Below are positions 1-45,500 of a DNA stretch of 64,000 nt, one piece after another. The DNA is from Corynebacterium simulans (GTDB taxonomy: Bacteria > Actinomycetota > Actinomycetes > Mycobacteriales > Mycobacteriaceae), in contig NZ_CP014634.1 in NCBI RefSeq assembly GCF_001586215.1, positions 1,364,001 to 1,428,000 on the forward strand. The letters are read 5' to 3'. The notes below the pieces were generated by a model that was given only the letters and a program-made list of their open reading frames with translations, was not told where the DNA came from and did no database searches. The first letter of the stretch is position 1; every line of letters starts with the position of its first letter. The position numbers and the translations under genes were made by a program.

Positions 1-574
1 TTTCTGCCCACTTAGGGTCGAAAATCTTGGAAACATTCCAAAAACACACCAAGCAGGGAATCACAACAACAATTAGATAGACTAGAACTATGTACATGAC
101 GGTCTGATCTACCGTGGGTGCTGAATCCTTGGTCACAGTGTCACTACTTTCCATCGATTCATCTGTGGGCATAACAATGTTTACCGTTCGGGAGTCCGTG
201 ACCGCTGTATCTTTGAGTGAGGAAGTACAGTCCAGAGCTTCCGTGTAGTGAATGAACCTGATAGGAGCGTTGTCTCCTGCTCCTGTGGCGCAGTCGAAAG
301 GCTGCGTCTGATCCTGAAAAGGAATTTTATTGAGTCGATCAGTAGTAACGGATGTCAGTTCCAGAACCCCGTCGCCGGAAGCGATTGACCATGTCGACAA
401 GTTCTGCTGGTTAGCGGTATCATCCGGAGATTGCCAGTGGGTACGTTCATCTGCATTAGCAAGCATCATTATTCCCATGAGTGGGAGAAGAATGATCACT
501 AGCAGCGCTAGGTTAAAGAAACCTACGACGAAAACTTCGCTTGTATTCCGCTTTGCTAAGTCACCGAGATACAC
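1..574 (-). CDS. ABC transporter permease (FtsX/MacB-like), partial at window edge
   Basis: The minus strand is open from a GTG at 574 to the window edge, giving about 191 residues without a stop. There is a hydrophobic segment near residues 18-40 (VVGFFNLALLVIILLPLMG), a long polar stretch of about 120 residues with two cysteines, then a second membrane segment (VMYIVLVYLIVVVIPCLV). This TM, outer domain, TM order fits MacB/FtsX-type permeases. The start overlaps the end of the upstream ATPase gene by 14 bases, so the two are probably translationally coupled and form one transporter. Since they follow a defensin-like peptide gene, export of or immunity to that peptide is the likely job (inference). 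The C-terminal part lies outside the window, so completeness is unknown. Confidence 0.6.
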   Translation of the reverse strand, partial: MYLGDLAKRNTSEVFVVGFFNLALLVIILLPLMGIMMLANADERTHWQSPDDTANQQNLSTWSIASGDGVLELTSVTTDRLNKIPFQDQTQPFDCATGAGDNAPIRFIHYTEALDCTSSLKDTAVTDSRTVNIVMPTDESMESSDTVTKDSAPTVDQTVMYIVLVYLIVVVIPCLVCFWNVSKIFDPKWAE

Positions 575-1214
575 GAGAACCACCGATCTCGTAGACGGCG
601 GAGGCATTTCTGGTTACTCGGGCATCGTGAGTAACCACTACCACCGGGATCTGGAACTGCTGAGCTAGCTCTAGAAATAGATCCATCACAGTCCTGGCAG
701 CTTCATCGTCGAGGCTGGAAGTTGGTTCATCCGCAGCAATTAGTGAGGGGCGGTTAGCGAGTGCACACCCAATACTGATGCGCTGACGTTCGCCTCCTGA
801 GAGAGAGCTCGGGTGACGGTCTTCATACGATCTCATGTTTAATCGTGTGAGAATTTCCCTCGCTGTAATGAAACTCTGCTTTCTCCCCCCTCTGGACATC
901 TCAGCAATTAGCCGGATATTATCGCGGCAGGTCAAATCCTCTATTAGATGGTTCTCTTGATCTACCACGCCAATATTCTTGAGACGAAAGTCTCGGCGTT
1001 TTTGCTCAGGATACTTTGAGTAGTCCTTTCCTGAGAGTGAGATCGTTCCAGAGTCTGGTTGGTCGATTCCTATGATGCATCTAAGCAGGGTAGTCTTGCC
1101 ACTTCCGGAAGGTCCAGTGATAGCAATTAATTCGCCCTGGCCAACGGAAAGGTTAACCTTATCTAGGATAGATTTCCCCGAAATGCTCCTGCTGATGTCG
1201 CTAACTTCTAGCAT
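561..1214 (-). CDS. ABC transporter ATP-binding protein (LolD/MacB type)
   Basis: A 217-residue nucleotide-binding subunit. Walker A is GPSGSGKTT, the signature is LSGGERQR, Walker B is followed by ADEPTSSLD, and the switch histidine is in VVVTHD, so all motifs for ATP hydrolysis are present. The open frame reaches 1265, but the ATG at 1214 (MLEVSDISRS) has AGGAG ten bases upstream and gives the normal start just before the first beta strand. It lies 66 bases downstream of the defensin-like peptide gene, separated by a 34-bp perfect palindrome, and overlaps the permease gene. It probably powers export of, or self-protection against, the peptide. The family is clear; the substrate is inferred from position. 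Confidence 0.9.
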   Translation of the reverse strand: MLEVSDISRSISGKSILDKVNLSVGQGELIAITGPSGSGKTTLLRCIIGIDQPDSGTISLSGKDYSKYPEQKRRDFRLKNIGVVDQENHLIEDLTCRDNIRLIAEMSRGGRKQSFITAREILTRLNMRSYEDRHPSSLSGGERQRISIGCALANRPSLIAADEPTSSLDDEAARTVMDLFLELAQQFQIPVVVVTHDARVTRNASAVYEIGGSRVSR

Positions 1215-1235
1215 GTGTTCCGTACTCCTAAAATA

Positions 1236-1269
1236 AATAGTGTGTCGCCGATATCGGCGACACACTATT
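1236..1269 (-). terminator. 34-bp perfect palindrome between peptide and transporter genes
   Basis: Two 17-base arms meet at 1252/1253 without a spacer (core GCCGATATCGGC). In the direction of the peptide gene the hairpin is followed by TATTTT. It starts 12 bases after the peptide stop codon and ends 22 bases before the ATPase start. This position suits a leaky terminator or mRNA-processing stem giving more peptide than transporter transcript. An operator for a dimeric repressor is an alternative. Confidence 0.55.
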
Positions 1270-1280
1270 CCGTCTTTCTT

Positions 1281-1475
1281 TTACACGCAGACGCAGCGCA
1301 GATCGAGGAATCCCTCGCAGTAACCGCCGGCAGAGTTGTAGTTGTCTCGACAGTAAGCCGCACAGCGGCCTTCCGAAGGGCAGCCACAGCATTCTGCCGG
1401 AGCGGTGGTGGCGTGCAGGTTTAGGTTCCGGGCGGACTCAGTAGACTCAGTGCGAAGTGCGAATCCAGGCATCAT
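1281..1475 (-). CDS. Defensin-like (CS-alpha-beta) cysteine-rich peptide, candidate bacteriocin precursor
   Basis: A 64-residue protein with eight cysteines, all in the last 37 residues. The last five show the CS-alpha-beta defensin spacing: CAAYC (CxxxC), then GGYC, then CVC (CxC) at the C-terminus. Animal and fungal defensins share CAxxC, GGYC and CxC, and so does the bacterial peptide actifensin from Actinomyces (from memory). An extra CCGC cluster precedes them and would supply the first cysteine plus a possible fourth disulphide. The first 27 or so residues (to ATTAPAE) would be a leader; it has no hydrophobic Sec core and no double-glycine site. Two ATGs occur at 1475 and 1472; AAGGAG lies two bases before the first and five before the second, so 1472 is the better spaced. 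An ABC ATPase and permease follow. Annotators would easily miss this gene. Function is inferred from cysteine spacing and context. Confidence 0.7.
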   Translation of the reverse strand: MMPGFALRTESTESARNLNLHATTAPAECCGCPSEGRCAAYCRDNYNSAGGYCEGFLDLRCVCV

Positions 1476-1625
1476 TTCTCCTTCTTATCTGGAGCACAGC
1501 TGGTTTGCTATGCACTGTAGATGTTAGAGGAACTTGTTCGATCGCCAGGGCAAAAGAAGGAAACAGGATACAAAAGTCACCACCCCTTCGAGGGGTTGAA
1601 GAAAGAGCAAGAAAACGGGCTGGGC

Positions 1626-1669
1626 CGTCGAAGTAGCCGAGGATGCGCGTATAGACGAGTTGGACGGCA
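1626..1669 (-). mobile_element. istA fragment of an IS21-type element
   Basis: About 44 bases match, with a few mismatches, the istA segment at about 5447-5490 and encode AVQLVYTRILGYFDG in the same sense on the minus strand. It abuts the IS3-type element starting at 1672. It is the trace of an older IS21-type insertion upstream of the peptide gene, so the original upstream part of that operon may be lost. Confidence 0.7.
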
Positions 1670-1709: not shown

Positions 1710-2591
1710 CTATGCTGCTTTGGTCAGTGTAGCTGATGTGAGTGCTTCGAAGTCATCGGGAGCTAGAAGGTTGCACCACGAGTGTCGCCGGCGCGTGTTG
1801 TAGCGCATGCACCACCGGAAGACTTCCTGCCGGCAGATAATGGGATTGTCAAAGACTTTCCTATCACGCAAGACTTCCCGCTTTAAGGTGGCGTTAAAAG
1901 ATTCTGCTAGGGCGTTATCCGCACTCGTTCCTACCGCGCCCATGGATTGGCGCACACCCAACGACGAGCAATAGCTCCTAAAGGCTTGTGAGGTGTACAC
2001 GCTGCCGTGATCGGAATGGAATACAGTCCCGTCAAGACTGCCGCGCACGCCGTGTGCGTGGGCTATTGCATCGACGACCAGTGACACTCGCATGTGGTCT
2101 GCGAGCGCATAACCTGCAAGTTTCCGTGAATACGTGTCAATGACTGTGGCCAAATACATGTTCTTGCCACCCTTACAGGGCAGGTAGGTAATGTCGCCTA
2201 CATAGACGCGGTTCGGCTCGTTGGCTGTGAATTTACGGCCTACTAAGTCCGGCATGACACGGTGGCCAGGCTTGCGCCTGGTAGTGACACATCGGCGGCG
2301 CTTGGTAAAGCCTTTAAGTCCCATGGATTTCATGATGCGTGCGACCTTCTTGTGATTTATCGGGCCGAAATCCGTATCACTGTTGAGGCTTGCAGCGATG
2401 CGTTTAGCGCCATAAAGCCCGTGCTCATCATCGAAGATGGTTGTAATTCTCGCACCAATAAGGGCATCGGAATACATCTTTAGCCTGCGCTTTTCACGGG
2501 TTTGGACCCATTTATAAAACGAGGAGCGATTGAGCTTTAAAACGTGGCACATCCGTGTGAGCCGAGTATTCGGTTTGGTGGTCATAGACAA
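1710..2591 (-). CDS. IS3-family transposase OrfB (copy 1 of type 2)
   Basis: A 293-residue DDE integrase-core protein. The N-terminal helical part contains LKLNRSSFYKWV and the HGLYGAKRI segment. The catalytic core has VYVGDITYLP (first D), VFHSDHGSVYTS (second D) and the ADNALAESFNATLKRE stretch (E). It is normally made as an OrfAB fusion by frameshift with the upstream orfA. The frame is intact, but the element lacks one terminal repeat. Confidence 0.9.
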   Translation of the reverse strand: MSMTTKPNTRLTRMCHVLKLNRSSFYKWVQTREKRRLKMYSDALIGARITTIFDDEHGLYGAKRIAASLNSDTDFGPINHKKVARIMKSMGLKGFTKRRRCVTTRRKPGHRVMPDLVGRKFTANEPNRVYVGDITYLPCKGGKNMYLATVIDTYSRKLAGYALADHMRVSLVVDAIAHAHGVRGSLDGTVFHSDHGSVYTSQAFRSYCSSLGVRQSMGAVGTSADNALAESFNATLKREVLRDRKVFDNPIICRQEVFRWCMRYNTRRRHSWCNLLAPDDFEALTSATLTKAA

Positions 2592-2603
2592 ACTGGAAGC
2601 GGA

Positions 2604-2903
2604 TTACCAGCGTGTCTCTTCGGTAAAATATTTAGCAGCTTTACGTAGAATATCGCGTTCTTCGCGCAGCTTCGCGTTTTCTTTTTCCAGCTGGCGGATT
2701 CGCTCAGAATCAGTCGCCGCTTGGGCTTTATCATGCACGGCTTTAATGCGGGCACGTTTGCCGGTGCCGTACTTCTTGATCCAAGCATGCAGCGAGGCAC
2801 GGTTGATACCGAGCTCTGCTGATGCTGCGTTCAGCGAGAGGTCCTCATTGTTTTCATAGAGGGCCACAGCATCGCGTTTGAACTGTTCGGAGTACCTGGA
2901 CAT
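2604..2903 (-). CDS. IS3-family transposase OrfA (copy 1 of type 2)
   Basis: A 99-residue protein with a helix-turn-helix (SLNAASAELGINRASLHAW) followed by a leucine-rich coiled coil (RIRQLEKENAKLREERDIL), as usual for IS3 OrfA proteins that bind the element ends. It lies 12 bases upstream of orfB. It differs from the copy at 22638-22937 at several residues, so the two copies are not a recent duplication. Confidence 0.9.
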   Translation of the reverse strand: MSRYSEQFKRDAVALYENNEDLSLNAASAELGINRASLHAWIKKYGTGKRARIKAVHDKAQAATDSERIRQLEKENAKLREERDILRKAAKYFTEETRW

Positions 2904-3525: not shown

Positions 3526-3843
3526 ATGTTCATTGTGAGTCAACAGCGCAAGAAGTACACGCCGGAGTACCGGCGTGAAGCCGCGAACCTGGTAATCGAG
3601 TCAGAGCGACCGATCGCTCATGTGGCTAAGGAAATCGGTGTTTCCGCCGGGCTTTTGGGCCGGTGGGTCAAACTCGAACGTGAACGCCGAGGATCCTCCG
3701 ATGGGATGAGCGAGGCTGACCTCCGAGCTGAGAATGCTCGTCTGCGCCGGGAGCTGGCAGAAGCCAAGATGGATAACGAGTTTTTGTCAAAAGCGACAGC
3801 CTTCTTCGCCGCGAAGCAACGCGAGCAGAAAAGTTCGAACTAA
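3526..3843 (+). CDS. IS3-family OrfA, copy A
   Basis: A 105-residue protein with a helix-turn-helix (PIAHVAKEIGVSAGLLGRWV) and C-terminal coiled coil (ADLRAENARLRRELAEAK). The start may be the ATG at 3526 or the GTG at 3535 (MSQQRKKYT). It ends where orfB begins (1-base overlap), the arrangement used for a frameshifted OrfAB transposase. It is the same as in copies B and C. Confidence 0.92.
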   Translation: MFIVSQQRKKYTPEYRREAANLVIESERPIAHVAKEIGVSAGLLGRWVKLERERRGSSDGMSEADLRAENARLRRELAEAKMDNEFLSKATAFFAAKQREQKSSN

Positions 3844-4742
3844 TGCAGCAGGAGAAGGCGAACTACAGCATCAAGCGCATGGCACGACTATTAAAAGTAT
3901 CTCGGTCTGGATACTACAAATGGGCCCATGCGCAGCAGAAACGACTATCCGGCGAAGATGATCGGGCAGCATTTTACGATGATGTTGACCGAAAGATTCA
4001 TCAGATTTGGAAAGACTCCGATGAGGTTTATGGTGCTCCGCGGATCACCGCAGAGCTTGCCGAGCGCTACCAGATCACCTTGAATCGCAAGACTGTGGCT
4101 AAACGGATGCGCATGATGGGCATTGAAGGGATTTCACCGCGTGCCTTTGTCCCGGTGACAACGATTCAAGCCAAGCGTAAGTCAACTCTTCCTGACCTGG
4201 TCAAGCGCATGTTTGATACTGGTCAGCTCAACCGAGTGTGGATGTCAGATATTACCTACCTGCGCACCGGTGAGGGCTGGTTGTACTTGTGCGCGGTCCG
4301 CGATGGTCATTCCCGCAGGGTACTGGGCTGGGCTATGGATAGCGTTCAAGACACACACCTGGTTGAACGGGCCCTGCGGATGGCGCATACGCTACGCGGT
4401 GATGTTCCTGATGGGCTGGTGTTTCACGCTGACCGCGGAACGCAATTTACCAGTGAGAAGCTCTGGGAGGTCTGCCGCAACCTGGGCATTGCCCAGTCTG
4501 TGGGGCGTACTGGTGTGTGCTTCGATAACGCGATGGCTGAGTCGTTCTGGTCGACGCTAAAGACTGAATTCTATGACCGGCAGCGCTGGGCGACCCGTGA
4601 TGCTGCACGCAAGGCCGTTGCCTACTGGATTGAAGTCGTCTACAACCGCCGACGCCGGCACTCTGCACTCGGGATGGTCAGCCCCGTCGACTTCGAAAAC
4701 CACATTGGTCTAACCACCAGTAGAAAAGAAATAGCTGCCTAA
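3843..4742 (+). CDS. IS3-family OrfB transposase, copy A
   Basis: A 299-residue DDE integrase-core protein. VWMSDITYLR gives the first D, VFHADRGTQFTS the second D, and CFDNAMAESFWSTLKTE the glutamate. The frame is intact. The N-terminal segment has RLLKVSRSGYYKW and DEVYGAPRI, typical of the IS3 HTH_21 region. It is probably translated as a fusion with OrfA by ribosomal frameshift near 3840. Confidence 0.92.
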   Translation: MQQEKANYSIKRMARLLKVSRSGYYKWAHAQQKRLSGEDDRAAFYDDVDRKIHQIWKDSDEVYGAPRITAELAERYQITLNRKTVAKRMRMMGIEGISPRAFVPVTTIQAKRKSTLPDLVKRMFDTGQLNRVWMSDITYLRTGEGWLYLCAVRDGHSRRVLGWAMDSVQDTHLVERALRMAHTLRGDVPDGLVFHADRGTQFTSEKLWEVCRNLGIAQSVGRTGVCFDNAMAESFWSTLKTEFYDRQRWATRDAARKAVAYWIEVVYNRRRRHSALGMVSPVDFENHIGLTTSRKEIAA

Positions 4743-6286
4743 CCACTAGGTAGCTCCACTACGTGTCCACGATTTGCGGGCAACCCCACCTGAGCATCAC
4801 CAAGGAGTCGTTTGCTCAGCTGGATCCATCATTCTTCGACGAGCACTTCAGCGACCATCGCGGGGCCCGTCGCAAGCGCTACGACCAGCCAGACTTCGAA
4901 AAGCTCGCCAAGCGACTAGCCAATAACAAGCACTTGACCCGCCACAAGCTCTGGCTGGACTACGTTGCTGCACCTGTCGGTGAAGGCGAGTCGAAGTATC
5001 AGTACTCCCAGTTTTGCGAACGCCTGCGCACCCACATCCGCACCACTGGAATGACCTCGATTATCGAACACGAGCCAGGCCAGGAACTCTATGTCGACTG
5101 AGCCGGCGACAAGGTTTCCATCATTGACAAGGCCATCGGTGAAGTCGGCATGAAAGCCAGCTTATTCGTGGCCATCTGCCCCTATTCTTCACTGTTGTTT
5201 GTGACAGCAACAGCTAACGAGAAGATGGACAACTGGATTTCCTGCCATGTGAAAGCCTTAGACTACCTCGGTAAATGCCCTGGCATCATCGTTCCTGACA
5301 ACGCACCGACCGCGACTTATCGGCCGGTGAAGAACAAGCCCGGCCGGCGCATTCAACAACGCTACGCGGACTTCGCCGACTACTACGACATCCTGCTCGT
5401 ACCGGCCCGACCTGGAAAACCTCGGGATAAGGCCGCTGTGGAACGCGCCGTCCAACTCGTCTACTCGCGCATCCTCGGCTACTTCGATGGGATCACCTTC
5501 TACAGTCTTGATGAACTCAATGAGGCTATCGCCCAGCGCGTCGACGACATCAACATGAATATGCCTAGGCCCGATGGGATAACCCGTAAAGAGTTGTTTG
5601 ATGCTGATGAAGCGCCCATGATGCGTGACTTACCAGATACCCCGTTTACGGAAGTGTCCTGGCGAAACGTCAAAGTCGACCGTAACTGGCACATCTGCTG
5701 CGACTACCAGTACTACTCAGTGCCGTTCCAATACATCGGCAAAACCCTGCGGGCACGGCTGACCAACAGCCTGGTGAGCATCTTCGACGGCGACGACCTA
5801 GTCGCAGAGCACTCACGTATGCACGGGTTCAAGTACCGCTATTGCACTGACCCAGCCCATACCCCGGATAAGGACATTGCCGGGGTCAAACCTCTTACCC
5901 GTGACGAGCTGCTTGCTCGAGCATCATCATTTGGGCCGGCAACGGCCAAGGTCGTCTCCTCAATTTTGGAACGCAACGCCAAAGCCGTACCCCGCGGGCT
6001 ACACACTGCCCGCAACGTGCTCGTCAAGCTGGGCAACAAGCACAACAAGACCACGCTTGAGCCTGCCTGCCAGCAAGTCATTGACCATAGCCTGGCACCC
6101 AACATGCAGGTCATCGCGCGGATTCAGGCCGACATCGCCCGCAACGGTCACACCCTCAACCAAACGCCAGCCGTCCAGGCCGATCACGCCCAGTCGCGCA
6201 TTGTGGATATCACCGCAATCCCTGATGCAGTATTCCTGCGCCCAGCCAGCCACTACGACATCCCGAAGAAGGAGGCCTAGACCATC

Positions 6287-7054
6287 ATGACCACCATCAA
6301 CCTTGACGATGACATCCGAGCTACACTGCGTAAACTGCGTCTTTCCACCTTCGCTGATATCTTTTTCGACCTAGTCGCCGCCGATGACGCCAACACCGCT
6401 CTACCGGAGGAAATCTTCCTCAAAGCCGTGGAAGAAACCGCGGCCAAGCGCCGGCAAACCAACATCGCAAAAGCCATCACCCAGGCGAAATTCCGCTATC
6501 CGGGAGCAACACTCGCCGAGCTGATCAACCCAGATGAACGAGGGTTGAATCTACGCCAGCTCAAACGACTAGCCGCAACACCCTGGCGCGACGAACCTTC
6601 CAATGTGCACGTCCTAGCGCCCACCGGTGCGGGTAAAACCTACATCGCCTGCGCTATCGGTATTGCTGCTTGCCAGGCTGAATACAGTGTCGCGTACTAC
6701 CGGCTGGATCAGCTCGTCGATGAATTAGGGGCCTTCCTGCCAGCAGATGAACGCTATGTAGCTAAAATGCGCAAGCTACAAAACATTGATGTACTCATCC
6801 TCGATGATTTCCTGACCATAGGAATCAACCAGCGCGGACAAGAAGACCTAACCAAGATCATATTCGACCGCGACGGCAGACTGCCGACCATCATCGTCTC
6901 CCAGACAACCGCCGCCTACTGGGTGAAGAAACTACCCGACCCCATCGGCGCGGACTCACTGGTCAGCAGACTCAATGCCGGACAGCGCATCGAACTCGGC
7001 GACTACGACATGCGCCAACACCTGGCAAGCGCCACATATGGCGCCAACGAGTAG
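6287..7054 (+). CDS. istB: IS21-type ATP-binding helper protein IstB
   Basis: A 255-residue AAA+ transposition helper. Walker A is APTGAGKTYIA, Walker B is VLILDDFLTIG, and the sensor region is TIIVSQTTAAYW. It starts six bases after the istA stop with AGGAGG in front (GAAGGAGGCC). The family's usual PIGADSLVSRL end region is present. It seems complete, though its partner IstA is not, so it cannot mobilise this copy alone. Confidence 0.92.
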   Translation: MTTINLDDDIRATLRKLRLSTFADIFFDLVAADDANTALPEEIFLKAVEETAAKRRQTNIAKAITQAKFRYPGATLAELINPDERGLNLRQLKRLAATPWRDEPSNVHVLAPTGAGKTYIACAIGIAACQAEYSVAYYRLDQLVDELGAFLPADERYVAKMRKLQNIDVLILDDFLTIGINQRGQEDLTKIIFDRDGRLPTIIVSQTTAAYWVKKLPDPIGADSLVSRLNAGQRIELGDYDMRQHLASATYGANE

Positions 7055-8537: not shown

Positions 8538-8855
8538 ATGTTCATTGTGAGTCAACAGCGCAAGAAGTACACGCCGGAGTACCGGCGTGAAGCCGCGAAC
8601 CTGGTAATCGAGTCAGAGCGACCGATCGCTCATGTGGCTAAGGAAATCGGTGTTTCCGCCGGGCTTTTGGGCCGGTGGGTCAAACTCGAACGTGAACGCC
8701 GAGGATCCTCCGATGGGATGAGCGAGGCTGACCTCCGAGCTGAGAATGCTCGTCTGCGCCGGGAGCTGGCAGAAGCCAAGATGGATAACGAGTTTTTGTC
8801 AAAAGCGACAGCCTTCTTCGCCGCGAAGCAACGCGAGCAGAAAAGTTCGAACTAA
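8538..8855 (+). CDS. IS3-family OrfA, copy B
   Basis: Protein of 105 residues, same sequence as the OrfA of copies A and C, with an N-terminal helix-turn-helix and a C-terminal coiled coil. The frame is intact and overlaps orfB by one base. Confidence 0.92.
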   Translation: MFIVSQQRKKYTPEYRREAANLVIESERPIAHVAKEIGVSAGLLGRWVKLERERRGSSDGMSEADLRAENARLRRELAEAKMDNEFLSKATAFFAAKQREQKSSN

Positions 8856-9754
8856 TGCAGCAGGAGAAGGCGAACTACAGCATCAAGCGCATGGCACGAC
8901 TATTAAAAGTATCTCGGTCTGGATACTACAAATGGGCCCATGCGCAGCAGAAACGACTATCCGGCGAAGATGATCGGGCAGCATTTTACGATGATGTTGA
9001 CCGAAAGATTCATCAGATTTGGAAAGACTCCGATGAGGTTTATGGTGCTCCGCGGATCACCGCAGAGCTTGCCGAGCGCTACCAGATCACCTTGAATCGC
9101 AAGACTGTGGCTAAACGGATGCGCATGATGGGCATTGAAGGGATTTCACCGCGTGCCTTTGTCCCGGTGACAACGATTCAAGCCAAGCGTAAGTCAACTC
9201 TTCCTGACCTGGTCAAGCGCATGTTTGATACTGGTCAGCTCAACCGAGTGTGGATGTCAGATATTACCTACCTGCGCACCGGTGAGGGCTGGTTGTACTT
9301 GTGCGCGGTCCGCGATGGTCATTCCCGCAGGGTACTGGGCTGGGCTATGGATAGCGTTCAAGACACACACCTGGTTGAACGGGCCCTGCGGATGGCGCAT
9401 ACGCTACGCGGTGATGTTCCTGATGGGCTGGTGTTTCACGCTGACCGCGGAACGCAATTTACCAGTGAGAAGCTCTGGGAGGTCTGCCGCAACCTGGGCA
9501 TTGCCCAGTCTGTGGGGCGTACTGGTGTGTGCTTCGATAACGCGATGGCTGAGTCGTTCTGGTCGACGCTAAAGACTGAATTCTATGACCGGCAGCGCTG
9601 GGCGACCCGTGATGCTGCACGCAAGGCCGTTGCCTACTGGATTGAAGTCGTCTACAACCGCCGACGCCGGCACTCTGCACTCGGGATGGTCAGCCCCGTC
9701 GACTTCGAAAACCACATTGGTCTAACCACCAGTAGAAAAGAAATAGCTGCCTAA
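8855..9754 (+). CDS. IS3-family OrfB transposase, copy B
   Basis: Protein of 299 residues, same sequence as the OrfB of copies A and C. All three acidic catalytic residues are present (SDITYLR, HADRGTQF, MAESFWSTL), so the copy should be functional. Confidence 0.92.
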   Translation: MQQEKANYSIKRMARLLKVSRSGYYKWAHAQQKRLSGEDDRAAFYDDVDRKIHQIWKDSDEVYGAPRITAELAERYQITLNRKTVAKRMRMMGIEGISPRAFVPVTTIQAKRKSTLPDLVKRMFDTGQLNRVWMSDITYLRTGEGWLYLCAVRDGHSRRVLGWAMDSVQDTHLVERALRMAHTLRGDVPDGLVFHADRGTQFTSEKLWEVCRNLGIAQSVGRTGVCFDNAMAESFWSTLKTEFYDRQRWATRDAARKAVAYWIEVVYNRRRRHSALGMVSPVDFENHIGLTTSRKEIAA

Positions 9755-9910: not shown

Positions 9911-10480
9911 TTAGGAGCCAAATAGAGCTTGAGTCACTAAAGGGCCAATCGCGGCGCTAGCAGCCGGCGCAAGGACATTGTCAGCCATCCAAGCTCTCAC
10001 AGTTTTCAACGCCCCTCTCTTTCCTTCTTTTTCACTTACGCTTTGAAGTTCTTCAGCTCGCCCAGTTTCACCATTCGCGTACAAGGCCAAGATTATCTCT
10101 CTAAGGAGCTCAGACTCATTGTTTTGGTTGACATTATTGCCATCTCCTTGAATGTTGATTGCACTGCCCAAATTGAAATTGACCTGACTATTCACAAAAG
10201 AACTCCTAGTTTGTGGACGACTGATTTCCTTGACGGAAATCCCGTGCTCTACTAAATCAATTCCCCTACGCTTCGCACGTACCGTTGAAATGTCCCCGGG
10301 AAAACTATCAAAAATTTCAATAAACTCTCGCTGGCCTAACCAATATAAATCCACTTGAAGGTCATCAATGTATTCACCCTCCAAATTTTCAGCACGTCGA
10401 AGCTCTGAGAATTGAACAACATCTACGCCAGAATTAACGACGACTTCTAGGATTTTGTCCCGCCGACTCCAAACATCCAT
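9911..10480 (-). CDS. Unrecognised protein, likely operon partner of the AbiTii gene
   Basis: A 189-residue protein I cannot place in a named family. Residues 1-80 look like a winged-helix fold (WSRRDKILEVVVNSG at the start, then YIDDLQVDLYWLGQREFIEI and VRAKRRGIDLVEHGISVKEI). A short asparagine/glycine-rich linker follows (INIQGDGNNVNQNN). The rest is a helical tail ending in APAASAAIGPLVTQALFG, mildly hydrophobic and perhaps membrane-interacting. It lies 28 bases upstream of the AbiTii-domain start on the same strand, so the two were probably co-transcribed. A sensor or effector of a two-gene defence unit is a reasonable guess, not a finding. Confidence 0.55.
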   Translation of the reverse strand: MDVWSRRDKILEVVVNSGVDVVQFSELRRAENLEGEYIDDLQVDLYWLGQREFIEIFDSFPGDISTVRAKRRGIDLVEHGISVKEISRPQTRSSFVNSQVNFNLGSAINIQGDGNNVNQNNESELLREIILALYANGETGRAEELQSVSEKEGKRGALKTVRAWMADNVLAPAASAAIGPLVTQALFGS

Positions 10481-10603: not shown

Positions 10604-11338
10604 TTGAACAAAGTTTTGGCTGAAACGGGTATCAGTCGATATAACCTTGGCGGCTCAACAACTAAGTGAGCGCGAATTGCACATGCGGTAGAGCGAAAAC
10701 AAGCTAGCCAGAATGACGGCAGGTCACTCGTCAAGTTGTTGTCAGTTGCATTCGATCCACGAAATCTGCTCACTGTGAAGACCGGATGTGACATAAATGT
10801 AGCCCGAGGCGAGGTAACCGCAAATATGTCATTCGACGGGCTTTTCGTTTCAGAGGAGGGAAAAATCAGATGGATCACCAAAACAAATACGCTCAGTGAG
10901 GCAAAGCTTCGAAGCGAACAGCTTCGCACATTGCTTCTGGAACGCGGTGCTCATGAACAAGTCTTGAGGCACTGACGCCCAGAACTTCTTCAGGAAGACT
11001 AATACGAAGCCGTTTTTGAAAGCATCAAGGGATTAGCCGAACGCTTACGTCTTATTACTGGGATGGACTTGGACGCAAGGAAGCTGGCCCAATCAGTCTT
11101 CGGTGGTGATAACCCGCGATTGAAGATCAATCAATTAAATAGCTCAACGGACAGGAACGAGCAAACAGGCACCCAACTTTTAGCTGAAGGGTTTTCTGCT
11201 TTTCGCACCCCTGCGGCCCTCGAAATCCAACTCAAGTGGCATATTAGCGAGCAAGACGCACTCGACATCATGGGTCTCGTTTCACTGATTCATCGTCGCG
11301 TCGACAACGCTGAACATCTTCAGAATCTAGGTATATAG
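10604..11338 (+). pseudogene. TIGR02391 (Ymh)-like protein gene with three in-frame stops
   Basis: One plus-strand frame reads through most of the family pattern: DGLFVSEEGKIRWITKTNTLSEA, then RSEQLRTLLLERGAHEQVLRH, ELLQED, YEAVFESIKGLAERLRLITG, DNPRLKINQLNSSTDRNEQ and DALDIMGLVSLIHRRVDNAE. It is interrupted by TGA at 10667, TGA at 10973 and TAA at 11000. The last two replace residues in the usual fCxELLxxxYxxAVxEA segment. No frameshift is needed, so it decayed by point mutation. The family is found in defence islands; its function is not established. The family call rests on remembered consensus. Confidence 0.7.
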
Positions 11339-11671
11339 AATCAATACCTGCCATATGCCGTAACATTTGCCTGCTAGAAAACCTCGCTTACAGAATTGCT
11401 TGAAAGCTGGGTTCTCTAGCGGTTACTAAGGGTTGTGTCCCGTGTCATACTGCGTCTACCACTTCGAGGTAGACACGTCGGGGTCAGGCCCACCTGCCCG
11501 TTGTGGCAACACTGGCTTACTGCGATTCGTGATTGGGAGGATCCACCAGACCTGTTGTTTCTTCAGTGCACCTAGATAGGCTGGTCGGGGGCTTGTTCCA
11601 GCGAGGCTGCGGTGCGTCTGGAATCTAACAATGCCAACTTGCGGCACCTCAGGTTATGTTTCATCTGACTT
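11339..11671. other. Intergenic stretch, nothing firm
   Basis: About 330 bases without a supported gene. At 11467-11491 a sequence reading GGTAGACACGTCGGGGTCAGG faintly resembles a terminal repeat of the type 2 IS3 elements here, but no element body is attached, so I do not annotate a repeat. Confidence 0.35.
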
Positions 11672-36553: not shown

Positions 36554-39500
36554 CTACGAGCGCGCCTCCACAAACTCCGCCACGCGCTCGACTGTCCGCA
36601 GACCGTAGAATTCGCGCACGCCAACCTCCACTCCCAGCTCTCCACGCAGCAGTGCGCAGAGCTTGATGACCGCCATGGAGTGCCCACCCATGTCAAAGTA
36701 ATCAGCATCCACCGGCACGTCCTCGGGCTCAATATCTAGCGATTCGGCAAACAGCTCCGCCGTGATCTCCTCGGTTTCGTTCGCCGGTTCGCGGCCCTTC
36801 TCCGTGATCCTTTCTCCCTCACCCAGTGCAGCAAGGTCGGTCTTTCCATTCGACGTCACCGGCAACTCATCCACGATCGACCATCGATCCGGGATCATGT
36901 AGCTGGGCAGTTCCTCGCGCAATGCATTACGCACGCCAGTCAGGAAACTCTGCCGCTCCCCCTGGTCCGCATCGCGCAGTTGTGGGGCCACGAGGTGACA
37001 GGCCAGGAGTGTGGCGTCGGATATACGAACAGGAACGGTCACGCAGTGGAGGATGCGGGGATCAACGCCGCGGGACACGGCGGCCGAGACGTCGCCGGGA
37101 TCCACGCGGTGACCACGAATTTTCACCTGATCGTCGCTGCGTCCGAGGTACTCGAACATGCCATCCGCACGCACGCGGACGATGTCTCCCGTGCGATACA
37201 TCCGCTCACCCGGGGCGCCCCACGGGCAGGCGACCATGGAGCTGGCGGTGCGCGCCGCGAGCCCATGATACTCCTGCGCTAAGCCGCTGCCCGCGAGGTA
37301 GAGCTCACCCGGCGCTCCTGTAGGAACGGGGCGCAACCACGGGTCCAAAACGAACGCCGCCGTGCGATCCACCGGCATTCCGATCACGGGCGTGGCGCTC
37401 TCATCCGTGCCAGCACCCAGGGCGTTGATGGTGTACTCGGTGGGTCCATAGAGGTTGTATCCGCGCACGTCATCGGCCTTTCGCAAGGTCTCCCACACGC
37501 CGTGCGAGACAGCCTCGCCGCCCAAGAGCACCAGCCGCGGGCGATGCGCGCCGGATTCCAGCATCCCCTCCGCGAGCAGCTGCTCGGCAACGGTCGGGGT
37601 GACGTTGATGACATCCACCTGATGCGCGCGAATGGCCTCAACCATGGCCGCAGCATCGCGTCGCAAATCCTCGGAGAAGATCCGCACCTCGTGGCCTTCC
37701 ACCAGCCAAAACAGCTCTTCCCACGACATATCGAAGGCGAAGCTGATGGCATGCGCGATCCGCAACGTCCGCCCATCGGCAGCAGCTGGGGCGAAGATCT
37801 TGCGCCGGTGATTGTCCAGCATGTTGTGCAGCCCGCGATGCTTGATCACCACGCCCTTGGGCTTGCCGGTCGATCCGGAGGTGTACATCAGGTAGGCATC
37901 GTCCCCGGGCACCGCCGCAGGCGTGTGGGTGGTGGCGTGGGAATCGGCAGTGGTGACGTCGACGCAAGGAAGCGCACCGATCCGCTCCATGCGCTCCCGA
38001 GAACTCGAGTCCACCAGCGCGGCTGCGGGCTGGCTGTCCTCCACGAGGACCCGGAGCCGCCCATCGGGGTGCGTCAGATCAAGCGGCGCGTAGCGCACCC
38101 CTGCCCACAGGGCTCCCAGCAGAGCCACCACCGAATGCGCGGAGCGCTCCACCGCAATGGCGACAGTATCGCCGCTGGTCACGCCGCAATTCTTGATCTT
38201 TTCCGCAATGTCGGAACAGCGAGCAATCAGCTCACCGAACGTCCACTGCTGTGCGTCATCCGCTAGCGCGATGCGATCTGGGAAGCGCTGGGCGGTGTCC
38301 TTGAGCTCATCCGCAATGGTGCGGTCAATGCCTTCGGCCTTCTGCCAGGAAGCCATCTGCTCCGTCGTGCTTTGCGGGGAAGAATCCTCCGCTCGGGCTG
38401 GCGCCAACTGGGCCAGCTGAGCGAGCGGGACCTCTGGTGTGTCCACAAACGCGGTCAGGACTTCGGTCGCGGCCTTGAGCACGGAATGTGCGAGGGACTC
38501 GTCCACCACGTCGTGGCGGAATTCCAGCTTGATGCCCAGCTTCGGCCCCGGAGTGAATACCCAGGTCAGAGGGAAGTGCGTGGAATCTTCCGCGCGCTCC
38601 TCCACAACCCCGTGGCGTTCCCGAAGTTCCGCTGCTGCCTGCGGATCGAGGAAGTTCTGCACCACCACCATGGAATCGAACAGCGTGCCTACCCCCAGCT
38701 GCCGCTGGATGGCGCCGAGGTCCGCGGAATCGTGGTCCATATCCTCGATGCGCTGGCGATAAACATCCTGGACCAGTTCTTCTATGCTCTGGCCGGGCCG
38801 AGCTGTCACTCGCACTGGCACTGTGTTGAGCAGCACTCCCACCACATCAGACATGGCGGGGTCGCTCAAGGCATCGCGGCCACTGACAGACTGACCAAAC
38901 ACCACATCCGAATCCCCTGTGACAGCACCCAAGGCCACGGCCACGGCTGCGTTGACCACGGAGGTCAACGTCACGGCCTGCGCCCGGATCTTTTCCTGCA
39001 GTGCGCCGGTCAGCTGCTCGCTGACCTCGGCAAACACCTGGCGAGGCAACTCGCTACCAGCGTGCTCTGAAGAGATATCCGCGGCCTGCGGGGCAACGAG
39101 CGTGGGCTGAGACAACGTCTCTAGGCGATGTACCCAATAGTCGCTATCTGCCTGCTCTTTGCGAGTGTCAACGGACTCGAGCAGGGCGTCAGCAATAGAA
39201 CAACCGCGAGGAACCAACTCTCCCGCACCCTGCGTGCGGGCCTGGCCGGACCTCAACGTCAGCCTCTCGAGGAAGGTTTGCAGCATCACTGCACGCGACC
39301 AACCATCGACCAGAACCAGGTGGTAGGTAAGAAGCAGCGTGTCGCCAGGCTGTCCGTCACTTCGGCCGGTGACGATGGTTGCCTTCGCCAGCGGCACGGA
39401 TGCGAGATCGATGCCCGCGCTGCGATCAGCGTGCATGATCGCCTCGAGATCCCCTTCGGTGGTCTCGACGGGGAGGTCAATGCCCTGTCCACTCCACGGC

Positions 39501-42500
39501 AAGTTCTGCACGGGTTGGCCGGAAGCATCGGTGTGGAACTCCGCGCCCATGGCTGGATGCACGGTCACTGTGTCCCGGAAGGCTTCCACCACGGCCTCGG
39601 CATCCAGTCTCCGGTCAAACGTCAACGCAGTCTGTGCAACGTAGGCACCCGGTGCTGCCACCTGTGACTGGAACCAGATTCCGCGCTGCAGCACGCTCAG
39701 CGGAGCGCGGCGTCCTGAGGATTGCTCGCGGCTGACGTGCTCCTGCAACTCGCGAGCAACCTCGCCGATGGCGCTGCGCAAACGCTCGGCGGAAATCACC
39801 GCATTCACCACGGACAGCTCCATGCTTACGGCCCGCTCGCTAGACCACACATCGGCCTCCACCAGGTAATCCGTCCACTGGCAGGCGGCATCGCCCGGCG
39901 CGTGGAGGACAGCGCCAGTCTCTCCCCGTCCGAGGTAGTTGACCAGGATCTGTGCCCCATGGGCCAGGGTTCGCTGCCCTTGCGGGTGTGTGTATCGCAG
40001 TGCCTGATAAGTGCGGCGGTCCGGGGCTGTGCCGTCCTCGTGGAGCGCGCGCATTTCCGCTGCGGCACGTGCTGCATCCGCTGGATCAGCCAACGGGATT
40101 TCCACCGGCGCGATGGTGGTAAACCATCCGAGGGTTCGACCATAGGAATGATCAGCCGGACGTCCGTGGCCTTCTACGTCCACGGCCCAGCTCCGCGCGT
40201 CCGTGCCCATTGTTCGAGCCACCGCGACGGTCACCAGTCCTGCCACGAGGTCCTGAACGTCCACACCCATCACGTCGGGTGCAACGCTCTGCAGGACCTG
40301 CGCGGTCTGTCCGTCAATGTTCACTTCGAGCGTGCTCACATGATCCGTACTCCACTGGTTCGAGTCCTCGACGGGCCGTGGCAGCGTAGCCAGTTCACTC
40401 CAGTGCAGGGCATCCTGAGCTGCTGCGGTGTGAGCATCGTGCAGTTCTTGCAGGCAAAGATCCTTGTAGCTCGCCTGCCCGGAGAGAATCCTGCGCCCTG
40501 CGAGCGCATCGCGCAGATCGTCTTCCAGAATCATCCAACTGGCGCTATCGATCACCGCGTGATGAGCAACGGCCTTGACGTACCCATCCACACACCCGAG
40601 CACCACGCTACGACCAGCAGCAATATCGATGTGATCGATCAATGCATCCACGTCCAAAGCCCGCACAACCATAGGGCCGTCTCCCTCGGCACCAACAAAG
40701 TGCGCGAACGCAGAACTGGTGTCCACGCGCGTACGAAGCATCGGATGTGCCTGCGCTACCTGCTGCAGGGCCTGTTCCAAGTCCTCCACAGCGACTGGCC
40801 CCAGATCCAAGCGGCGCGCCTGCACAAAGCGGTCGCTCATGCCTCTTTCCATCTGCCTGCGCAGCATCGCCGGGATGGGGAAAGCCCCCGAGATCTCCTG
40901 GTGCCCGTCCTTGGGCAGGGCTTCTTCCTGGCTCTGCCTTGTTTCCTGGATTTTCTGCTGGGTGGCCTGCGGCGTGACCCGCTCGGCAATCTTGCGTGGC
41001 GTGCGGCCCAAGAAGAAGTCCCGCGGAGTCACGTTGAGATCAGCGCGCGCCAGCGCGTGAGTAACGCGGATGGCAAGAATACTGTCTCCACCTAAGCGGA
41101 AGAAGTCCGAGTCCGGCTCCACCTCGGCGCGGTCCAAGCGAAGTGCATCAGCAATTGCCTGCGAGATCGCCTCCACCAGATCCGAGGTGCCCGAAGCCTG
41201 CTGAGCAGCAGGAATCTCACCCAGAAGGTCCAGGATCGCGCGCTCATCCCGCTTGCCATTGATGGTCTGCGGCACCTGCGTACTCACCGCGAATAGCTGC
41301 GGAACCATGTAGGCAGGGAGCGCGTCTCGGGCCGCTGCGGCAGCTCGGGAGGTGATCGCCTTTGCGTCGGCACGAGAATCCGTAATCAACAACGCACCCG
41401 GCACCTGGCCTTCGGGCAGATCGACGACCACCACGGTGGCCTCCCGCACACCGCTGACCTTCTCCAGCGCGCTCTCGATCTCCCCCAGCTCCACGCGATA
41501 ACCGCGCAGCTGCACCTGCCTATCGGCGCGGCCCACGTAATCCAGATGACCGTTGTTCAGCACCTTTGCCATGTCATTGCTGCAGTACATCCGCGCGCCG
41601 CCGCCAACGAAAGGATCGGCCACGAAGCGGGAGGCCGTGGTAGAAGCAAGCCCCCAATAACCCGCGGTGACCTGCGGCCCGGCAACGTACATCATGCCGG
41701 TCTCTCCAGGCTGCACCGGCTGTAATTGCGCGTCCAGAACATAGGTACGCAACCCGTCCATCGGGCGGCCGATCGGGCTGCGGGCCTCCCCTGCATTCTC
41801 GGAGCATTCGTGTGCTGTGACGTGCACTGTCGTCTCCGTGATGCCATACATGTTGATAAACCGAACATTCGGATGAGCACTGCAGTAGGCAGCCTCCGCG
41901 CGGGCCTCCAAGGCCTCGCCGCCGAAGATCACCGTGCGCACCGCAGAGTCCTGCCCGAGGTGCGGCTCCAACGCGGCAAAGGCGGTTGGGGTCTGGCTCA
42001 GCACCGTGATGGCTTCGGCACGCAACACCTCTGCGGCATCCTCGGGCGAGCGCATCAGCGCATACGGCATCACCACGGCACGCCCGCCGGAGCTCAGCGC
42101 TGCCCACATCTCCCACACCGAAAAGTCAAAGGCGAAGCTGTGGCTGATCGACCACACGTCCTCCTGCGAAAACTCCACGTGGCTGCGAGCATTGCCCAGC
42201 ATCGCGGTCACGTTGGCGTGTGTGACGGCCACGCCCTTCGGCCGCCCTGTGGAGCCGGAGGTGTAGATCACGTAGGCGATGTCATTGGCACGGGCCACGC
42301 TTGCCGACCGGCCCGCAGGCGGCTTCGCTTCCCCGCTCATCGTCTGTTCACTGACCACGAGGACGGGACAATCTACCAGCTCAGAGACCATTTTTTCCGC
42401 GCTGGGAGACACCAGCACGGCATCGGGCTGGCAATCCTCCAGGATCAATTCCACCCGCGCTTGCGGGGACAACGGATCCACGGGAACGTAGGTGCCGGCG

Positions 42501-45500
42501 GACATCGTGGTCGCCAGAATGGCCGCAACCTGCCACGCATCGCGCTCCATGAGCAGGGCTACTCTCGGGGTGTGGATGGCAACCTTCCGGTCCAGCACAG
42601 CGCGTATACGCTGAGCGGCGTCGTCTAGTTCTTCGTAGGTCCAATGCTCCGCAGCACCGTCTTCTCCGATGCTGGTCAGGGCGGGCCGGTCGCGGGAGTG
42701 CTCGAAGCTGCGTCGCCACAAAGAAGGAAGCGTGTCCACACCAGATACCGCACCCAACGCCTCTGCAACCTCACCCACGGTCGCCACCGCACCGGATTCA
42801 GACAGCAAAGAATCCACACTCACCGCGAGCATCTGCGCGATCCTTTCGGCACGTACCTCGGTGATTCGCTGCGGATCGTAGATCAGGCGCAGTGGGTGCT
42901 CAGCGGAAGGGTTGACCACGACGGACAGGGGAAAGTGCGGCGCGCCATTGTTGCGCACGTCAGCAACCTGTAGTGGCGAGCCGGGGCAGCCCACGTCCTG
43001 TGGAGATAGCGGCACCTCCACCACCATCAACGTATCCAGCAGTTCGCTGGCGTTGGTTCCCAGGTCGCGGGCAATATCAGCCAGGCTGACGTGCTGCACA
43101 TCGCGGACCTGATTGTTGTGATGGACCATGGCGTGCAGCATGCTGGTCACCGGCAGGGTGGGATCAGATTGCCCCGGCGCGACCACCGGGATGGTGTTGA
43201 GCTGCATGCCCACGGCATCGGCCACGCCAAGAACGGGAATGTCACGGCCGGAAACGGAAGTGGCAAACACCACGTCAGCCCCAGGTTCGCAGCCCACCAA
43301 GGTGCGAAGGACCAGCCCCCACGCCGCGTGCACCACATCCGGCAGGCCCACACCCGCTACCCGAGCACGCTCAGACAAGCCAACAGTCCGCGGATCGTCT
43401 ACCAGCAACTCCCGGCGCTCGAGCGAACTCGAAGGATTAGGGCACAGCACCGTGGGGCGTACCTCGCGCATTTCCTCGCGCCAGACGGACATATCGGCTT
43501 CCGCGTCTCTGCGCGCCACCCATCGCACGCTGCCGGCCATTCCGGCGTCCGGGTCGTAGCGCGGGATTCGGGCATCGTCATCCCGGTAGATCTCCAGGAG
43601 ATCCCGCAGCATGATGGGCACGGACCATCCGTCGGCGATCAGGTGATGCACCGTCTGGATCACGGCGATGTCCTGGCCACACACCGCACCATCGACACTG
43701 GTCGGGAGCACAACGGTCCATCGCATGAGCGGCTCGGGCGCGGCATCACCGGGCGGCTGCAAGGAGATTCCCCGCGAGAGGTCATCAGCGGCAATCTCTT
43801 CCGTACGCTGCACGAGCCACCCGTCTAATCCAGGCCCAGCCAACTCGGCAGGCACCGTCACGTCCCGAAAGTCCACCCGCAAATGCTCGGCAATCCCCGG
43901 ATCAATCACGGCAACCACATCGCCACCGTCAGTTTCCCAAGGGCGGGTGCTCAGTGCGGGGTGGCGTCGGATCAAATTACGCGCAGCGCGGGCGAATCGC
44001 TCCCGGTCAAACGGTTCGCTGCATTCCACCCGCAAGACCTGTTGCTCCACATACGAGCTGGCCGATTCCTCGAATAGCGAGTGGAAGTACATGCCGTGCT
44101 GCAGCGGGGTCAGCGGCAGCACGTCCTGCAGCTCCGCGGAGCTCTGCGCAGTGATTCGTGCCAGGTCCGCAGAGTTCACGGGTGCGGGGGCAACGTCGCC
44201 CACGGACAACACGCCGTGATCGGCAAGCGCTGCCACCTCGCGCAATGCCACATCCCAGTGCGCGACCAATTCGTCGATCCGTTCGGGGGAGATCCTGCCG
44301 CGCGCCCAGGAGATCGTGGTGCGCAGGACGTATCCCTCGCCGGTGTCTTCGGCGATCGCGTTGAACTCCAGCTCGCGGACCAACGGCTGGTCCGGGTCGC
44401 GTTGCTCGCCGAGTTGGCCGGTGGAACCCGCGGGAGCGAAATCTTGTGCTCCTGCGGATACGCGCCCCAAGTAGTTGAACAGCACCTGTGCCTGCGGAGG
44501 GGTCTTCGCGGACTGATGCAACCAGGTGTGGGCCTGGTAAGGAACGCCGTTGCCGGGGATGGCCGCGAGCTGGTCTTTCACTGCGTTGAGTGCCAGCGCT
44601 AGCGGGGCGATGCTGCCCTCGACCTCTGTGGAGGCCTCCTGCACTGCCGCCCGGGTGGGGTCGATCAGCATGGGATATAGGCAGGTGAACCAGCCCACCG
44701 TGCGTGAAAGGTCTGCTTCCCTGCCCTGTGGCCCGGGTACGAATCGGGTTTCGCGGCCGTGCCCCTCCATCTCCACCAGGGTCCATGTTTGTTTGTTTCG
44801 ACGCCAACGCGCCAACGCCACGCTCAATGCCGTAAGCAATACGGAATTCGCCCCCGTGCGGAAAGCGTGGGGCACCGCACCCAGTAATTCGTCCGTGATC
44901 TGCACTGATGCCTCATGTACCACGCTGCGCTCCTCACGGACTGTGGGCGCTTTCTCGGGACTATCAGCAAGCGCTGGCACCTGCGGGTCCCGCAGAGGTT
45001 CATCTGCACTCGGCAATGGGGGCAGGGAACTATTGGCATCCTCCGCGAATTCGCCAGTATCAACGGCCTGTTGCAGCAGCTGCGTCCATCGGCGCAGGGA
45101 CGTCCGCTCCGGCGCGAGCTGTTCCCCGCGATACGCCGCGGCGAGGTCCTCGCCGATAATGTTCCATGACACGCCATCGACCACCAGGTGATGCACCACA
45201 AGGCGCAATCTTCCGGGCACCAGCCCAGCCGCTACCACCACTCCGACTGCCGGATCCAGCAGTTCAGAAAGCGCAGCGATGTCCGTGGTGGGGTGGATCG
45301 CCACCGCTTCTTCGGCAGATTCCTCCGGGAGTTCCAGCCGCAAGGGATTCCGCTGCACACGGGCCCGCAGTGCAGGGTGCGCCTGCAGCACGTCAGCCAC
45401 CATTCGCCCGGCCAGCTGCGCATCCACATCTTCTGGAACTGAAAACTCCACGGACTGAATGAAGCCGTCCACGTGATCAGTAATGGAATCGAACCAGCGC

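Follow-up and report, generated by a model that had tools for sequence, protein, structure and literature searches.

At the left end of a 64,000-nucleotide stretch of Corynebacterium simulans DNA (contig NZ_CP014634.1, positions 1,364,001 to 1,428,000; the window hereafter) lies a gene for a small peptide with eight cysteines, and directly after it come genes for an ABC transporter ATPase and a permease-like protein. A sequence-only reading of the window had picked out this frame, which indeed exists and carries an eight-cysteine CS-alpha-beta array; that reading was true but incomplete, for the operon extends about 6.5 kb further left. With a probability of roughly two in three, we interpret it as an operon on the chromosome that encodes a secreted defensin-like bacteriocin rich in disulphides and works in the seven steps proposed below. 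The operon is of more interest than the peptide. The peptide itself is not new; what is new is the presence of lasso-type genes and a MauE-thioredoxin gene beside an actinodefensin. The operon genes have open frames, which overlap or directly adjoin one another; they are listed in window positions or in those of the locus L009, from which 14000 is subtracted to obtain window positions.

1478..1483 (-): Shine-Dalgarno-like AAGGAG upstream of the peptide gene, by sequence reading
1281-1475 (-): gene of the putative defensin-like bacteriocin precursor, 64 codons if the first ATG is used (1281-1472, 63 amino acids, if the second)
1236..1269 (-): hairpin with a stem of 15-16 pairs, separating the peptide gene from the ABC genes, by RNA folding
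561..1214 (-): ABC transporter ATPase of LolD/MacB type, 217 amino acids from ATG (PF00005, 1.6e-35)
1..607 (-), L009 13717-14607: permease-like protein 1, 296 amino acids, crossing the window edge
L009 12507-13733 (-): permease-like protein 2, 408 amino acids
L009 11402-about 12526 (-): lasso-cyclase-like protein A, about 370 amino acids
L009 11226-11423 (-): open reading frame (ORF) of 65 amino acids
L009 10459-11238 (-): MauE-thioredoxin protein, 259 amino acids, combining MauE-like (0.0011) and CNSC thioredoxin-like parts
L009 8953-10458 (-): second ABC gene, 501 amino acids
L009 8516-8953 (-): protein of 145 amino acids, no assignment
L009 7854-8519 (-): S9-like hydrolase, 221 amino acids
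L009 7540-7857 (-): lasso-B2-like protein p105, 105 amino acids

The peptide and its relatives

The second ATG, giving 63 residues, is likelier the true start of the peptide, because its spacing from the AAGGAG (5 nt) fits and most database homologues begin there. The precursor comprises a leader of about 27 residues ending in PAE and a 36-residue core, CCGCPSEGRCAAYCRDNYNSAGGYCEGFLDLRCVCV, and by analogy with actifensin the leader would be cut off after the glutamate (PMC6989792; PMC8819291). The eight core cysteines are spaced CCxC-x5-CxxxC-x10-C-x7-CxC. A search of all six frames of the window meets the CS-alpha-beta cysteine pattern a single time, and 20 codon-shuffled windows taken together likewise yield one instance. 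Around the hairpin, the region 1205-1285(-) folds at -30.6 kcal/mol (z -6.69; 0 of 200 shuffles equally stable), and the structure at 1236-1269 is possibly a processing site or a partial terminator.

The proposal of a defensin-like bacteriocin, already made in the sequence-only reading, is borne out by comparison with known families. The NCBIfam actinodefensin model NF038042 matches the peptide with E 6.2e-8 and 33.1 bits, the curated cut-off being 65 bits, and on this sequence similarity we class it as a distant actinodefensin, homologous to the curated subfamily but lying outside it. Sequence matches in the PDB include the scorpion defensin BmKDfsin3 (7e-6) and the mussel defensin MGD-1 (0.0043), and Pfam Defensin_2 reaches 0.059, under its cut-off; cysteine spacing together with similarity to these solved members argues for a CS-alpha-beta defensin. 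Structure comparison supports the fold weakly. An AlphaFold model from a seven-sequence alignment, modest overall (mean pLDDT 61.5, with blocks of 69-80 across the core), predicts a helix at 35-46 and strands at 51-54 and 60-63. Among the best 50 of 88 Foldseek rows obtained with this model, the lowest E was 0.1 and none was at or below 0.001. We take 48 of these 50 to be CS-alpha-beta proteins (defensins, gamma-thionins, brazzein, actinomycesin and a scorpion toxin); the titles of the other two, 7c2p and 6au7, are uninformative about fold.

What does not hold is the suggestion that the extra cysteines define a new subgroup. Zhu et al. 2021 mined 48 bacterial defensins, Corynebacterium ones and pseudogenes included (PMC8819291; we draw on parts of this and of the other articles cited by PMC number). 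Their CBSIN-2, from Corynebacterium sp. KPL1995, is of AITD type and combines, like the window peptide, six canonical cysteines with two adjacent N-terminal ones, the latter modelled as a vicinal disulphide. This adjacent pair, the trait of the CBSIN-2 group, is present in the window core. The comparison is one of descriptions, not of letters, and does not establish identity. With CBSIN-2 already described, the window's eight-cysteine peptide can at best add one more member to a group already published. The acidic residue before the core also has its counterpart, since in actinobacterial AITD-type members such a residue is the usual processing site (PMC8819291).

The frame is conserved in relatives, as a check for homologues showed: the protein database holds nine homologous clusters, seven of them with an intact core region, while P0005 and P0009 read like frameshifted copies. 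Our working alignment (A2) leaves out these two and P0001, which is the window's own. All eight cysteines are found in 10 of 11 intact precursors compared, and the remaining one, P0003, has seven with the adjacent pair kept. In all 11 intact CCG(C/S)P precursors compared, two of whose cores are identical, an acidic residue, Glu or Asp, occupies core position 7.

Searches of 242 Corynebacterium genomes gave matches to NF038042 at E <=0.01 in five and to the A2 profile in 13, three of the latter clear (5e-38, 2e-23, 3e-15) and ten between 1.5e-4 and 0.009. The first permease-like gene was found in five of these genomes (E 1e-5) and the MauE-thioredoxin gene in one. Of 394 genomes of the class, NF038042 matched the window's own alone, and NF038044, the model of a protein B discussed below, matched none. 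A scan of a species collection led to seven loci, in two Corynebacterium, an Actinomycetales metagenome-assembled genome (MAG), Micromonospora rosaria, Saccharothrix algeriensis, Stackebrandtia albiflava and Nannocystis; a near-match search of a plasmid collection returned no copy of the operon. The locus of the myxobacterium Nannocystis (L021) has a six-cysteine defensin frame at 10001-10168, and no genes of the set described below were detected in its fetched flanks.

Actifensin binds lipid II (PMC12284004), and the window peptide departs from it in having eight cysteines instead of six, CCGCP instead of GXGCP and a net acidic core. Some of its features weigh against a bacteriocin of that mode of action: net charge is -1 and pI 4.8, the core starts with CCGCP, and the two marks of lipid-II-binding GXGCP defensins, an aromatic residue at position 2 and a His before Cys3, are absent, the latter being replaced by Tyr. 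As 80% of bacterial defensins are positively charged (PMC8819291), one might suppose that the peptide is a signal or a metal-binding peptide and not antibacterial. However, its kinship to antibacterial defensins and to actifensin is clear and it is served by dedicated transport genes, which makes such a role improbable in our opinion.

Lasso-type proteins in the operon

Protein A is identified, with good support from hhalign on the one hand and an AlphaFold model with structure search on the other, as a homologue of the lasso cyclase C with a cyclase-like fold. The SGGxDS motif, by which the lasso C rows used for comparison had been selected, was seen in none of ten A proteins, and the Asp of the pyrophosphate (PPi) loop is missing wherever the loop of A is visible. 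Several observations weigh against this assignment. None of the A proteins scanned (the window's and those of L016, L018, L094 and L095) matches a Pfam family, the first 17 Foldseek rows have low TM-scores (0.26-0.48), and in the search for lasso cyclases two of the eight picked by motif were absent at E 0.5 and one came at 0.14. The window's own A is without the first 90-100 or so residues of the alignment and without the PPi-loop motif; it matches L016's A at 0.015 only, and NF038043, the model of the actinodefensin-associated protein A, at 0.0084, the link running through the Micromonospora A.

For the B2-like protein, profile comparison gives moderate support to homology with lasso B2 proteins. 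Five such sequences against 14 lasso B2 proteins, the latter selected by HAW-type motifs, scored 59.4 in hhalign (E 9e-5, 49 columns) with 20 shuffles at or below 0.2, and eight sequences scored 87.5 (E 3.6e-6) in a run without shuffle control. Among the four relatives' proteins scanned, two match Transglut_core3 just under its cut-off (1.4e-4 and 3.5e-5) and one matches lasso_biosyn_B2, also under cut-off (0.0011); p105 resembles the MAG's B2-like protein at 2.6e-6 and Micromonospora's at 0.055. On the other side, a B2 hidden Markov model ranked B2s as its first three ORFs with one alone below 0.1 (0.0028), and neither p105 nor the B2-like proteins of L016 and L018 match PF13471 or NF033537 at E 0.1.

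Catalytic residues have been lost in the relatives' A and B2-like proteins. The column of the catalytic Cys holds Cys in 14 of 15 lasso B2 rows (the fifteenth, L081, looks like a wrong-frame ORF) and in 0 of 8 B2-like proteins, p105 included; the catalytic His is likewise found in 0 of 8, the lasso rows having been selected for it. An intact PPi-loop cyclase accompanied by a Cys-His B2 protease, the mark of a lasso cluster, was not found. As for the small B protein seen in other loci, its reading as lasso B1, a PqqD-type recognition element, is unsupported, the hhalign probability of 0.8 being below the 3.3 that shuffles reach. Protein B went undetected in the window genome, and the 65-residue ORF, a candidate for it by position, matches no B protein and was rejected.

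One could nonetheless imagine that the lasso-like cyclase is active and adds an N-terminal macrolactam, joining core Cys1 to Glu/Asp7, besides the disulphides. Position 7 is permitted as acceptor in lasso rings, and the acidic residue found there in every intact CCG(C/S)P precursor would suit such a product. Yet the PPi-loop Asp is missing in A proteins with a visible loop, the knottin-pattern cores described below have no acid at positions 7-9, and actifensin, once purified, could be sequenced from its N-terminus and weighed about 6 Da less than predicted (PMC6989792). We give this modification hardly any credence and keep to an A protein without cyclising chemistry.

The MauE-thioredoxin protein, with relatives at 54-76% identity in other contigs, is likely a disulphide oxidase, and the second ABC gene is the likelier exporter of the peptide. 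The window hydrolase shows weak similarity to a single S9 protein (0.002), with Ser, Asp and His kept in the alignment; the S9 assignments of L016, L018 and L094 exceed the Pfam cut-off, and L016's hydrolase bears a weak likeness to the model of the lasso isopeptidase Atxe2 (2.4e-8, with 33 bits where the cut-off is 400). Counting against these identifications, the MauE match of the window protein is under the Pfam cut-off, as are the other MauE matches, L018's protein having none in Pfam; the second ABC gene matches other exporters through its ATPase domain alone; and the window hydrolase has no Pfam match and only 221 residues, against 527-725 in relatives. Nine L009 proteins were scanned, and none is a subtilisin-like protease.

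The transporter module beside the peptide gene

The ABC ATPase and the permease-like gene do follow the peptide gene directly, as first described. The ATPase matches LolD (1.6e-51) and the bacteriocin-export model TIGR03608 (1.4e-49), both under curated cut-offs. Neither permease-like protein matches a Pfam family, a point against their assignment, and because no family fits, the name permease is given by position and hydrophobicity. The sequence-only reading had left export or immunity to these genes; of the two, immunity is the better reading for the adjacent module, while export passes more probably to the other ABC gene, outside the window.

The argument comes from two genomes, Corynebacterium sp. 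NML130628 (L015) and NML140438 (L017), in which the ATPase and both permease-like genes are open and 74-82% identical to the window's. Just 34-35 residues of A match there, and no other biosynthesis gene was found in the fetched flanks at E 0.01, save for ATPase-domain cross-matches: the transporter has been kept after biosynthesis was lost. The peptide gene is disrupted in L015 and reads as frameshifted in L017, so that the lesions differ. In the stretch compared, similarity to the window's A stops at nucleotide 239 in one genome and 240 in the other, beyond which the pair remain alike for about 30 nt; because the breakpoint is apparently shared and the likeness continues past it, the loss of the biosynthesis genes probably predates the split of the two. 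Between the two species, the three module genes have accumulated 72 non-synonymous changes (about 2067 sites) and 84 synonymous ones (about 696 sites), with ratios of the two rates (dN/dS) of 0.43, 0.32 and 0.18; against the window genome the ratios are 0.13-0.20. Since constraint that persists without a product fits a role in protection from the peptide of relatives, the LolD-type ATPase and the two permease-like proteins are probably an immunity module. This argument rests on two genomes and fails if the breakpoint arose twice.

The same three proteins might instead export the peptide, and not serve immunity, or not only: their genes directly follow the peptide gene, and the ATPase scores well on TIGR03608, though under cut-off. 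This seems unlikely to us, given that two Corynebacterium species with a broken peptide gene and no biosynthesis genes found keep all three genes under the constraint just described, with A similarity ending at a common place, and that another, exporter-like ABC gene belongs to the operon.

Broken peptide genes in these genomes and in P0005 and P0009 also raise the question of whether the window locus is itself a decaying remnant that makes nothing. Its A and hydrolase are short, and transposase-like genes are dense on both sides of the operon (window 1710-2903, 3526-4742, 4763-7054 and 8855-9754; L009 3640-7438), called by eye except for 8855-9754, which has Pfam integrase-core matches. Sugrue et al. 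2020 suspected one Corynebacterium homologue of being non-functional, because the ABC genes were missing upstream (PMC6989792). In the window operon, however, the ABC genes are present, the frames are open and abut or overlap, the hydrolase retains its Ser, Asp and His in the alignment, and the MauE-thioredoxin protein is well matched by its relatives elsewhere. A remnant is quite unlikely on this balance, and a working bacteriocin operon remains our reading.

The gene set beside other cysteine-rich cores

Four other loci (L016, L018, L019 and L020) have CCGCP-core peptides beside a larger version of the set: A of 429-511 residues, an S9 peptidase of 527-725, a B2-like protein of about 120-145, together with B, a MauE-thioredoxin protein and an ABC exporter. 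B exceeds the NF038044 cut-off in three of the four, L019 falling under it with 33.9 bits. Saccharothrix algeriensis holds a second copy of the set (L094), and among 115 genomes of its family, itself included, NF038044 matched eight, five of them over cut-off. Ten loci were read. A, B, MauE-thioredoxin, B2-like and ABC genes are all present in L094, L104, L106, L107 and L112, although the B of L112 is under cut-off (37.4 bits); L105 and L108-L111 are without the full set, L105 (in genome G657) having B over cut-off, a B2-like protein and an ABC gene, with A and MauE not found. This makes nine actinobacterial loci with the set, eight of them with S9; the exception, L107, lies on a contig of 9353 bases.

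Near each of the nine lies a cysteine-rich precursor, and these are of four kinds: CCGCP defensins in four loci; a knottin pattern, C6C5CC4C4C or C6C5CC4C11C, in four peptides of three loci; a six-cysteine GGYC/CxC defensin in L107 (NF038042, 0.0088); and, beside the full set of L112, in MAG RSA1, a 12-cysteine peptide (11124-11540(-)) with no NCBIfam match. Because the precursors were chosen by eye among many other cysteine-containing ORFs, the association may be due to chance, with L107 and L112 the most exposed to this. The exact knottin pattern, written after the peptides had been seen, turns up four times in the set-bearing loci (149,795 bases) and never in the lasso loci (145,347 bases), the other loci (78,505 bases) or the window; a loose CS-alpha-beta pattern gave one spurious-looking match each in L104 and L069. 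The PDB matches of the L094 peptide are all weak (best 0.034) and are mostly, we presume from their names, knottins; in Pfam it matches Conotoxin at 0.0024 and, better, Dickkopf_N at 0.0011, both under cut-off. In 9 of 11 precursors the first core cysteine has a Glu at one of the two positions that precede it.

We propose that the operon works as follows. A leader-core precursor would be made, and its leader held by a scaffold of the degenerate lasso cyclase A, the degenerate B2 protein and possibly the small B. The MauE-thioredoxin membrane protein would form the disulphides, the second ABC gene would export the peptide, and the S9-type hydrolase would cut the leader after the conserved Glu. 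The core could then attack the envelope of Gram-positive competitors, perhaps via lipid II like actifensin, the producer being protected by the LolD-type ATPase and its two permease-like partners. We infer the functions from scaffold to target, and immunity as the final step; what the analysis itself shows is the family of the precursor, A's homology to the cyclase and its cyclase-like fold, the moderate B2 homology, the loss of catalytic residues in relatives and the retention of the transporter after biosynthesis was lost. On what we propose as the simplest account, a lasso-type set has given up its chemistry and now provides leader-guided folding, oxidation and export of disulphide-rich peptides. 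Whether this amounts to a new actinobacterial cluster class, in which a lasso synthetase set without cyclising or cutting chemistry serves, with the MauE-thioredoxin oxidase, folds as unrelated as defensins, knottins and a 12-cysteine peptide, is in our judgement an even bet. If true, bacteria would have a definite, testable machinery for making folded defensins and knottins; genome mining could use it to find both kinds of peptide, and it would exemplify enzymes put to new use once catalysis was lost.

These clusters resemble those of lasso peptides in the cyclase homologue, the B2-like protein, the ABC gene and the S9 hydrolase, and differ in the absence of Cys and His from all eight B2-like proteins, in that the PPi-loop Asp of C was not seen in A, in the disulphide-rich core and in the added MauE-thioredoxin protein. 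With the actifensin operon of Actinomyces the window operon shares a Glu before a CS-alpha-beta core, two ABC gene sets, an alpha/beta hydrolase and genes of unknown function (PMC6989792; NF038042-44), synteny between the two being deduced from the family models. Several actifensin operon genes are labelled hypothetical or of unknown function (PMC6989792), and defensin-like bacteriocins are placed in class II, with no enzymatic modification beyond disulphides (PMC7616364). The decRiPPter families of Streptomyces have a MauE homologue beside precursors with at least eight cysteines, proposed as a modifier, while asparagine synthetase, defensin and knottin have no mention in the main text (PMC7794033). 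Bacterial inhibitor cystine knot peptides were reported in 2013 (PMC3694633). The main text of Zhu et al. mentions neither MauE nor thioredoxin, and in the portion consulted ABC genes are described for Actinomyces only (PMC8819291). Among the matches listed in open-access articles, as far as their text was consulted, none joins actinodefensins or knottins to lasso-type proteins.

The surroundings of the operon deserve a few remarks. Its G+C content is 49%, against 59% for window 15000-64000, and this merely hints at horizontal transfer, because L009 1-2400 is about as low, at 51%. The genome has six further copies of a 44-bp piece found at window 1625-1668. Response-regulator-like genes occur near the set at L009 2454-3146(-), L015 13390-14157(-) and L094 4571-5236(+); the window genome's is of NarL type and is separated from the operon by transposase-like genes, and the other two were judged by sequence reading, L015's resembling that of the window genome. 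Farther along the window, a non-ribosomal peptide synthetase gene of 3618 codons (36554-47410(-)) has three AMP-binding, four condensation and three carrier stretches, and two ABC transporter genes lie beside it (49009-50781 and 50729-52546).

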